Part shown: piece after piece, positions 7,911 through 49,368 of the stretch | Layout: every line of letters starts with the position of its first letter | Numbering within the stretch: the stretch's first letter is position 1 | Source: Scytonema hofmannii PCC 7110 | Lineage (GTDB): Bacteria > Cyanobacteriota > Cyanobacteriia > Cyanobacteriales > Nostocaceae | Length of the DNA: 64,000 nt | Assembly (NCBI RefSeq): GCF_000346485.2 | Contig: NZ_KQ976354.1 | Coordinates: 6,168,479 to 6,232,478, forward strand | Direction of reading: 5' to 3' | The notes under the pieces: generated by a model | What the model saw: the letters and a program-made list of their open reading frames with translations, nothing else | What the model was told of the DNA's origin: nothing | Database searches by the model: none | Program-made: the position numbers and the translations under genes

Positions 7911-10060
<2,150 letters not shown>

Positions 10061-12987: not shown

Positions 12988-14653
12988 TTAAGCCAGTTCA
13001 GCACGCAGGGCCGCAAATGAACTTTTGCGAGTCAAAGCTTTAGTTGGACGAATTGACCAAGCAAAAAAACGAGCTAAATTAATTGCACAAGCAGTGGCGA
13101 TATGCTGTAGATGTGTTTTCACTAGTCCATAATATCGAGTCCGACGCAAATCAAATCGAACAATGCCTTGAGAGATCGTACCCTCAACACCAGCGCGACG
13201 TGCGTAGCGGCGCTGAAACTCTGGAGTTTGTTGTTGTTGGCGACGCTCCGCAACGTGCATCAAATTCCGCACGCGGTCGCAACTTAATTTTTCGCGGCGC
13301 AGTTTTAGCATTGGTACAATCACTTCTCATTGGGCATTTCTCACAAGTCTTACGGTCAAAGACAACTTCAATTAAGGGATTGTGATTGCAATCACGAGTT
13401 GGACGCCAAATGCGACTGCTTGAACCCATTGGACATTGAACAACTTGTTTGTCCCAATCAATGATAAAGGCACTCACATCAAAACCCGTGTTTAATTTGG
13501 CTTGCCACGACCTATTCATAGCCACAGGACCAACAACAGAAATTTGATAATTTTCATGGCTTTCTACTAATTGGTAAGCATCCACATAAGCCGCGTCCAC
13601 ATAATGCTCTTGTGGGAGCAAATCTTTGGCAGCCAGTTGCTCATGAACTACCGAAGTTACTTCCCCATCTGGAGTGGTAGCAGTTGTCGTCACTACATTA
13701 GTGATGAAATTTGGGGTCTCCTCATCACAAGTTTCTGTGAAATGAACTTTATATCCTGTCCAATTGATATCTCGCTTGCTACTATTACGTGCGTCTATAT
13801 CATAGGGGGATTCTATACAAATCGAATTCGGTGGCAATCCGATTTTGTCAGGATTTCGCCAGACTAATCCACTGGTATTAAATGTATACTGCTGAATCCA
13901 TATCTGTCTTAAGATTTCTACACTTTCGAGTTGCTGCAATTCTCTTTTTTCGCTTGAGCCAAACCAAGTTTTTTGCAGTAAATAATGCCCATCAAATCCT
14001 ATTTTTAGCGCTAACTCCTCCCGCTCACTTTGACTTTTTGGTAATCGATAATTATCAAATCTCCAGCTATAATGCTCAAACCATCTCTCACTAATAATCA
14101 GAGTTAACCATTCTGGCTCTACCGCCGCAATTTCGTTGAGCGCGGCTCTCAATGCTTCTCCCACTAACTCTAACCTATTAACTTGACGTATTGTTGCTAA
14201 CACTTGAGTTGAGTCTGTTCGTTGCTTACCACGCTGCTTGATGAGTTTTTTTTCTTGAAACCTCACCAACATTAAATCCAACAGTTTGTTCGATAATCCA
14301 TGCTCACATAATCGGCGGCGAAACTCGCTCAAAACGCTACAATCAAATCCCGAATCTGTTAACTCTAACCCCAACACATATTTCCAATCTATCCGACTTC
14401 TGACTGCATCTGCGGCTTGACGATCTGTTAATCCCTCTGTAAATTGCATCACCGTCACCAAGGCTAACTTTCCTGGTGATATTGCTGATTGACCACACAC
14501 CGCCGGAAATAGCTCTTGAAACTCTCTATCAGAGTAGATACTTCCGATCTCATCATACATATGCATATACATATTACCCTTGGGGAACGATGCACGTGCT
14601 ACTTGCACTGTTTGTTGTGGTATCTCCCATTGATTTTTTGGATGCAGTACCAT
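12988..14653 (-). pseudogene. IS1182-type transposase, frameshifted
   Basis: The first frame (14653 down to about 13255) gives the N-terminal DUF772-like part (YSDREFQELFPAVCGQSAIS, then LTDRQAADAVRSRIDWKYVL), the DDE core and the CEKCPMRSDCTNAK cysteine motif, up to KLRPRAEFDA. The expected continuation (ERRQQQQTPEFQRRYARRAG, VEGTISQG and TRYYGLVKTHLQH) is in a different frame ending at 12988. A single-base change near 13245-13260 therefore splits the gene. No slippery heptamer is visible there, so I call it a dead copy, or a sequencing error. Apart from the shift the protein looks recent: no internal stops in either half. Confidence 0.88.
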
Positions 14654-21070: not shown

Positions 21071-21101
21071 TCCGGATGCACAAAAGAAAACTCAGTATCA
21101 G
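21071..21101 (+). promoter_or_regulatory. DIF+-like promoter upstream of patX
   Basis: TCCGGA at 21071-21076 is the DIF+ hexamer known at the -35 position of HetR-dependent start sites in Anabaena. A TATCAG at 21096-21101 (19 bp spacing) or AGTATC a little earlier (17 bp) could be the -10. The start codon is 33 bp further on. Seen: the hexamer. Inferred: its use. Confidence 0.55.
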
Positions 21102-21133
21102 TGAAATGGATAGTTCAAAAATAAACATTCATT

Positions 21134-21367
21134 ATGCGTGCAGCTGTTTCACTTTTAATCGTAGGTTTCCTGTGTAGCTCCTTTGCTATTAACAACCAAG
21201 TACCTAACACTTTCTCATCCAAATATGATTCGCCACAATTGATTTTGGCGAGAGCGACAAGAAGAAGCTCAACCTCACAACCTGGAGGCTCTAGACGTTC
21301 ACCTTACAGAGGTAGTGGACGTAGAGAATTAATGGAATTTATCAGTACTACGCAATCTGATGTCTAA
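21134..21367 (+). CDS. patX: PatX-like RGSGR pentapeptide precursor
   Basis: This 77-residue protein has a hydrophobic secretion-type N-terminus (MRAAVSLLIVGFLCSSFA) and a basic Ser/Arg/Gly-rich C-terminal part that contains RGSGR at residues 59-63 (bases 21308-21322). That is the pentapeptide by which PatS and HetN block HetR. PatX is described as a small exported protein with RG(S/T)GR near its C-terminus, present in nearly all hetR-containing filamentous cyanobacteria; this gene has that exact layout. The TCCGGA element upstream suggests expression in differentiating cells. It would be processed and exported to inhibit HetR in neighbours. The pentapeptide is followed by 14 more residues, so proteolysis at both sides would be needed. 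Confidence 0.85.
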   Translation: MRAAVSLLIVGFLCSSFAINNQVPNTFSSKYDSPQLILARATRRSSTSQPGGSRRSPYRGSGRRELMEFISTTQSDV

Positions 21368-47826: not shown

Positions 47827-49368
47827 ATGTCATTCAAAAGTAAGGAACAAAAAGAGCAGGATAAAGAAAAGAATAAAAATACTCACATTTCAACTGTTGT
47901 GCAGCATCTGAAATTGTCCAATCTTGGGTATGCTGTAATATCAGACATATTGTCACACGCAAACAGTTTATACAATACTTTAACCTTCAATCTGAGGCAA
48001 GGATTTTTTGTACACAAAATTCTGAATTTTCAATCTCTAACTATTGATTTACAAACTGACTTCAAAGAAAACTATCATTACAAAATGCTGCATTCTCAAG
48101 CAGCACAATCCGTGTGTCACAAGGTAACTGAGAATTTCAAATCATTCAAACAGCTTTTAGACAAACATTTTAGAGAGGGGACAAAGAAACCATTATTACC
48201 AGGTTATCGTCAAAAAGGTGGTATGTTTGAAGTGACATATCCCAGTCAATCAGTCAATATATCACAAGAGCATGGCATTATATTTGCTACTGTTTCTACT
48301 GGCATTATGTTCAAGAAGCAGCACAAAGAAGATGTCATGGGAACAAGTTTAAATGAGAGATTGAGATTCAGAGTTCCCGATGACATTGACCCCTCTAACC
48401 TCGTTGAGCTAGTGATTACATCAAAGCATAGAGAGATTTATCTACATTGGGTATGCAGAAAGAAAAATGAAATTGTTGCCACATTAAATAAGTCAAGTGT
48501 TTTAGGAATTGACATCGGATTGAACAACTTTGTTACCTGTATTCCGAACACAGGTGAAGAAGGATTTCTCATAAATGGGCGACCATTAAAGGCAATAAAT
48601 CAGTTTTATAACAAGACTGTATCTAAGCTAAAAAAGGGTAAGGATGAGAATTTCTGGAGTGGTAGTTTAGCTAGGGCAACGCAGTCTAGGAATAACCAAG
48701 TCCGCGATTTTATCAAGAAATCTGCACGGACAATAATCAATAAATGTTTAGAATCAGGAATAAGTAAAATTGTATTTGGTTGGAACCAAGGAATTAAGAA
48801 TGAAATAGATAACGGACGTGTCAATAATCAAAATTTTGTACAGGTTCCATTCACCGCATTACGTGATACACTCAAGTATCTCTGTGAGAGATCTGGTATA
48901 GAATTTGTAGTTGTAGAAGAATCATACACCTCAAAAATGTCATTTTTTGACGGTGATGAATTACCCGTTTACGGTCAAGAAACCGAAGAACAGAAGAATC
49001 TTAAGCCTTCTGGAAGAAGAACAAAACGCGGGGAATACAAAACAGGAAATAACACAATTATCAACGCGGATGCCAATGGGGCTTCCAATATTTTGAGAAA
49101 GGCCAAAATTGATACATCAAAAATTACTTTTCGGGTGTGTCAAATTCTCAAGACAATCAATATTTGGATAGGTCACGCACAGGGCAAGAAAAAAAGGGGG
49201 AATGCCATTAATGGATATCCTGCACTACCCCTCAATAAATCAAGGGGCTTGGGCATTCCCCCTTTTTTTAAAGGCTTAATCCTCGGTAAAAAATTCCCAT
49301 CACGTAAAGGTACGGCAGCAGGCTTGTCTTGTTGTACGACTATAGGACTCACTGAACCGGGTCAGTAA
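47827..49368 (+). CDS. TnpB-type RNA-guided nuclease, zinc-finger-less variant
   Basis: The RuvC catalytic residues are D229 (LGIDIGLNNFVT), E364 (VVVEESYTSKMS) and D415 (INADANGASNIL). The helix-turn-helix and OrfB-type N-terminal half precedes them. The CxxC...CxxC zinc finger usual between the second and third motif is absent; here it reads RRTKRGEYKTGNNTI, a known TnpB variant. The stop lies at 49368, beyond the right-hand hairpin B', so residues about 452-513 are translated from the element end and probably do not belong to the original protein. TnpB proteins are guided by an RNA made from this very region. No tnpA is adjacent. Confidence 0.92.
   Translation: MSFKSKEQKEQDKEKNKNTHISTVVQHLKLSNLGYAVISDILSHANSLYNTLTFNLRQGFFVHKILNFQSLTIDLQTDFKENYHYKMLHSQAAQSVCHKVTENFKSFKQLLDKHFREGTKKPLLPGYRQKGGMFEVTYPSQSVNISQEHGIIFATVSTGIMFKKQHKEDVMGTSLNERLRFRVPDDIDPSNLVELVITSKHREIYLHWVCRKKNEIVATLNKSSVLGIDIGLNNFVTCIPNTGEEGFLINGRPLKAINQFYNKTVSKLKKGKDENFWSGSLARATQSRNNQVRDFIKKSARTIINKCLESGISKIVFGWNQGIKNEIDNGRVNNQNFVQVPFTALRDTLKYLCERSGIEFVVVEESYTSKMSFFDGDELPVYGQETEEQKNLKPSGRRTKRGEYKTGNNTIINADANGASNILRKAKIDTSKITFRVCQILKTINIWIGHAQGKKKRGNAINGYPALPLNKSRGLGIPPFFKGLILGKKFPSRKGTAAGLSCCTTIGLTEPGQ
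49189..49269. repeat. Hairpin unit B, right copy, inside the tnpB frame
   Basis: This has the same palindromic design as the left copy, with GGGGGAATGCC/GGCATTCCCCC. It lies within the 3' end of the tnpB reading frame and would be part of a right-end guide RNA. Confidence 0.88.

Follow-up and report, generated by a model that had tools for sequence, protein, structure and literature searches.

The 64,000-nucleotide stretch of Scytonema hofmannii PCC 7110 DNA analysed here (the window) carries a short gene which sequence comparison confirms to be an orthologous patX of the known family, ordinary for that family. PatX proteins are exported and give rise to a short peptide that holds back the formation of nitrogen-fixing cells in filamentous cyanobacteria. 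The gene is preceded by a DIF1 (DIF+) promoter motif, and a hetR gene is present in the same window. By analogy with Nostoc/Anabaena 7120, the promoter would respond to HetR indirectly, most probably through HetZ, and the product would be exported, cut by a PatP-type peptidase and yield a peptide that binds the HetR hood domain. The probability of this reading as a whole is put at about 0.92. The features are collected in Table 1.

Table 1. Positions of patX, its promoter and hetR in the window, and of three further ORFs of the genome (G000, this genome; G257, the genus-mate in the sample)
Feature	Position	Strand	Remarks
TCCGGA, DIF1 (DIF+) motif, predicted -35 element of patX	21071..21076	+	conserved in family
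AGTATCAGTGAAA, predicted extended -10 region	21094..21106	+	AGTA 17 nt behind TCCGGA in 52/52
Short 5' leader with conserved AGTTC block	21107..21133	+	AGTTC at same place in 50/52
patX, 77 aa	21134..21367	+	NCBIfam NF047413 heterocyst_PatX, cut-off 30, E 2.8e-12
Sec-type signal sequence, predicted, residues 1-18	21134..21187	+	judged by eye from sequence
YRGSGR, predicted active hexapeptide (RGSGR 21308-21322)	21305..21322	+	identical in G257
14-residue tail, RELMEFISTTQSDV	21323..21364	+	tail of exactly 14 in 35/69 distinct proteins
hetR, predicted target of peptide	7911..8810	-	NF009718 HetR 625.8 bits; HetR_C hood domain PF18460
DERGSGR ORF (a), patS at pyrC-like/tsaE-like locus	G000:C1:2663101 (L101, around 5001)		39 residues behind motif
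DERGSGR ORF (b)	G000:C1:9510346 (L102)		about 580 nt behind 181-aa gene
DERGSGR ORF (c)	G000:C1:1665323 (L100)		GTG start, 14 codons; behind gene class II aldolase-like by eye

At the protein level, the patX frame has 77 codons, from its ATG at 21134 to the end of the stop codon at 21367, and RGSGR occupies residues 59-63, close to the C-terminus. The first-pass annotation had given the coordinates, frame and length exactly. An in-frame TAA begins 12 nt 5' of the ATG, and the start is thus well placed. Residues 1-65 align with positions 1-68 of the 69 positions of NF047413, the curated PatX equivalog model, at 47.2 bits against a cut-off of 30 (46.2 bits in a second search). No other NCBIfam profile matched the protein at E up to 10, and Pfam has no family for it. 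A PatX profile search had been named beforehand as a possible refutation of the proposal that this is the local PatX; with a score over the curated cut-off, and with a promoter layout kept across the family, the proposal stands. The remark that small-protein pipelines often miss the gene need not apply, since the NCBI PatX model scores the protein above its cut-off.

The Scytonema hofmannii PCC 7110 genome has one NF047413 match, as does the genus-mate, where the PatX ortholog is 74 aa in length. Of 184 same-family genomes, 178 are matched by the model (177 over the cut-off); so are 94 of 243 genomes across the wider order, and none of 14 control genomes is. The window protein scores lower than most of the same-family matches listed, many of which reach 60-105 bits, and its middle portion is variable. 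For comparison, 80 PatX sequences were assembled: the window, 30 loci from the profile search of the wider order, 28 from that of the same family, 20 from a synteny set, and the genus-mate locus. Seventy-five of these were parsed and gave 69 distinct proteins, of which 12 come from outside the family and 57, the window protein among them, from within it; the five unparsed sequences are L027, L032, L136, L144 and L154. In three out-of-family rows (L031, L036 and L037) the Met was assigned later than the likely start.

The parse required RG[STAN]GR, and the motif count, RGSGR in 68 of the 69 distinct proteins and RGTGR in one, is therefore biased towards this pattern. RGGGR is found in two of the five unparsed loci (L154 and L032), so the PatX motif shows slight variation within the family. 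Both of these loci match the PatX model; L154, of the same family, keeps TCCGGA at 63 nt, and L032 has no TCCGGA. The residue preceding the motif is His in 44 proteins, Tyr in seven and Glu in seven. The window protein has Tyr (residue 58) where most relatives have His, and cleavage and affinity need not equal those in 7120. In the six reading frames of the 64 kb window, RG[S/T]GR occurs only as the RGSGR of patX. The N-terminus, MRAAVSLLIVGFLCSSFA, is hydrophobic and resembles a Sec signal by eye. The 14 residues behind the motif had been contrasted with PatS. This contrast holds for classical PatS; a tail of 14 is the commonest length among PatX proteins (others range from 0 to 162) and so marks nothing unusual in a PatX, and the patS of the pyrC-tsaE locus in this genome is tailed too. 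Four PatX loci from another family of the order (f33), L021, L022, L024 and L025, have three to four RGSGR copies in repeated units, reminiscent of a multi-peptide precursor.

At the DNA level, TCCGGA starts 63 nt before the patX ATG. Within 110 nt upstream, the hexamer is present in 56 of the 57 distinct same-family patX regions parsed (window included), at a distance of 63 nt in 52, 62 nt in three and 66 nt in one; the remaining region has TCCGGG. In 500 rounds of single-base shuffling, the 57 upstream regions gave 0.3 on average and never more than 3. All 52 regions with the 63-nt spacing have AGTA starting 17 nt behind TCCGGA, and 50 of them have AGTTC at a fixed place. Outside the family, TCCGGA is found upstream of one of 12 patX genes, at 61 nt. 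Among the unparsed loci, the same-family L136 and L144 have longer frames, with TCCGGA lying 363 nt upstream of the motif, and L027 has no TCCGGA within 420 nt of the motif. The hexamer by itself occurs 11 times in the window against 7.84 expected, a number reached in 20 of 100 shuffles; its count is not above chance, but its position upstream of patX is. Genome-wide, TCCGGA-N17-AGTA is found 15 times and the reversed control pattern twice.

Judged from its sequence, the patX promoter has the layout of the DIF+ class: TCCGGA, a 17-nt spacer and AGTA. In the DIF+ design, TCCGGA at -35 is separated by a 17-bp spacer from an extended -10 region that runs from -13 to the start site (PMC6133370). 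From this layout, the patX start site would be expected near 21107. The first-pass annotation regarded TCCGGA as a HetR-dependent -35 element. The distance and layout bear out a -35 element (63 nt in 52 of the 57 regions, with the 17-nt spacer); as to the regulator, DIF1 promoters are described as depending more directly on HetZ than on HetR (PMC7377430). The window and the genus-mate agree at all 72 nt preceding the ATG. Their coding regions differ at 17 of 74 aligned codons, and 11 of these differences change the residue; YRGSGRREL has no residue change, and the Tyr codon of YRGSGR is changed synonymously. The alignments show tighter conservation in the leader than over most of the PatX protein.

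The window hetR product aligns with the solved HetR 3qod at 641 bits (phmmer), and the gene lies about 12.3 kb from patX, in agreement with the 12 kb given earlier. Synteny was followed in 20 hand-picked relatives, mostly on long contigs, over approximately 15 kb upstream and 5 kb downstream (just 13.8 kb for L154). The upstream FAD oxidoreductase is present in 16 of the 20, glnA in 14 and hetR in nine; thus the vicinity of hetR is common but not fixed. A search for TCCGGA in the 900 nt upstream of the window hetR, with one mismatch permitted, turned up five scattered candidates, all weak and none convincing. Transposase-type frames, by eye, are found at 13184-14653 and 47827-49368 of the window.

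The mechanism proposed for the window gene follows that of patX in Nostoc/Anabaena 7120, which we take to be asl2332. The gene would be transcribed early in differentiation, in differentiating cells, from the DIF1 promoter, which would need HetR indirectly and most likely via HetZ. Sec would carry the small protein out, and a PatP-type peptidase would cleave it on either side of YRGSGR; the released peptide would then reach adjacent cells, bind the hood domain of HetR and block HetR binding to DNA. In 7120, PatX requires export and is cut by PatP; an assay in E. coli has demonstrated its export signals, and the peptide HRGTGR has a KD of 88 nM for HetR, which it prevents from binding DNA (PMC12756182). 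Early induction of patX in future heterocysts of 7120 has also been reported (PMC7761841).

The window PatX resembles 7120 PatX and the NF047413 family in being a small protein with predicted export that carries RG(S/T)GR towards its C-terminal end and whose gene has a DIF1 promoter (PMC12756182; PMC7377430; PMC7761841). It differs from 7120 PatX in having Y rather than H before the motif and RGSGR rather than RGTGR, differences noted without an alignment to the 7120 protein. The description of 'Alternative PatS' proteins with Y/HRGSGR fits the window PatX, and this group probably is PatX, but a proline-rich stretch is described there and the window PatX has few prolines before its motif (PMC5812504). 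HetN shares RGSGR in some species (PMC5812504), but is a different protein with an internal motif. PatS (NF047415) has the same HetR-inhibiting pentapeptide; unlike the window PatX it has ERGSGR, usually at the very C-terminus, as seen at 46 of the 57 distinct places read at the pyrC/tsaE locus.

The same pentapeptide, and a promoter motif of the same kind as that of patS, would also suit a PatS, the precursor of an ERGSGR peptide without an export signal. This identity is very improbable, as RGSGR is preceded here by Tyr and not Glu, the N-terminus is signal-like, the PatX model alone matched at E up to 10, and patS proper is found elsewhere in the genome, between pyrC-like and tsaE-like genes. 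The chance that a random ORF with RGSGR came to lie beside a random TCCGGA is close to nil. Such a coincidence might be suspected, given that the window holds no excess of TCCGGA over chance and that the 12.3 Mb genome has many matches to a loose RG-pattern (196, against 253 for the reversed control), but it is ruled out by the PatX profile score above the cut-off, by a promoter place fixed in the family (TCCGGA in 56 of 57) and by the identical 72-nt leader of the genus-mate.

A more serious alternative, though still an unlikely one, accepts the gene as a true patX ortholog and makes it minor in heterocyst spacing, with some other HetR-linked role, such as in growth with combined nitrogen, in hormogonia or in akinetes. 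Loss of patX alone in 7120, without combined nitrogen, led to no discernible change (PMC7761841), and the three DERGSGR ORFs of this genome could cover the role in spacing. Against this, the patX leader and motif are under strong constraint, and patX is the sole RGSGR source found with a DIF1 motif, the three DERGSGR ORFs being without TCCGGA within 1.4 kb upstream. A PatX ortholog with a DIF1 promoter and a part in HetR inhibition is the preferred reading.

The three DERGSGR ORFs are a side result that is more interesting than patX itself. Besides PatX, this genome has three such ORFs, and three are also present in G257, the only other member of the genus sampled; all have residues behind the motif. 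Across the three places, the DERGSGR codons of the two genomes differ by five substitutions, all synonymous. ORF (a) is the patS of the pyrC-tsaE locus and has a run of GGTCACT-type repeats upstream. At this locus, with a duplicate removed, patS is tailed at 11 of 57 places and ends in RGSGR at 46. ERGSGR proteins of 65-115 aa have been described as putative PatS (PMC5812504), and a tailed PatS as such may therefore not be new. The 181-aa gene ahead of ORF (b) matched no Pfam or NCBIfam family. Of the 85 places read, 13 show the arrangement of (b); they belong to four genera, this one included. An alignment of 10 loci reveals a leader common to ORFs of types (b) and (c), containing TTTCCTGTT, TGTAAATG and AGCATC. 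Tentatively, and as part of the joint reading of four peptide sources given below, (b) and (c) may represent a patS-like family with a shared leader, (b) being present also in three other genera. No description of locus (b) or (c) was found in the available excerpts of the relevant papers.

TCCGGA is absent from the 1.4 kb upstream of (a), (b) and (c) in this genome. In the genus-mate, (c) has one at 1185 nt, the only one of the three there within 1.4 kb. Within 700 nt upstream, the hexamer is found at 34 of 46 tail-less patS genes, at three of 11 tailed ones of the same locus and at none of 13 of kind (b). The PatS model scores (a), (b) and (c) at 25.7, 19.8 and 21.7 bits, all below the cut-off of 30. 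At E up to 1 this model is too lax, with matches in seven of 14 control genomes, and only its scores for already known places were used. The counts of patS places and of places of kind (b) come from 89 of 119 listed places read; four loci (L077, L078, L091 and L092) gave no row, and the 86 rows represent 85 places, as L096 and L205 are the same. The degenerate RGSGR-codon pattern was rejected as too loose to be used alone genome-wide. RGSGR followed by a stop was also discarded, with 16 matches against 24 for the control and RG[S/T]GR in none of the 16 loci, both strands read. DERGSGR or ERGSGR is also found within the long frames of L071, L168, L181, L202 and L065, perhaps from inserted short repeats; by eye, these frames are presumably NifJ-like and HypF-like.

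The window patX is a further example of PatX and HetR in one genome. It is conceivable, though somewhat less than an even bet, that in this genus four RGSGR sources face HetR, PatX and the three tailed DERGSGR ORFs; since in this genome TCCGGA is missing from the 1.4 kb upstream of each of the three, PatX alone would be driven by DIF1 and would lead early patterning, unlike in 7120, where PatS leads and masks PatX. With patX as the sole DIF1 source of RGSGR found here, beside three tailed DERGSGR ORFs, it would become testable whether PatX can lead inhibition in some heterocyst formers.
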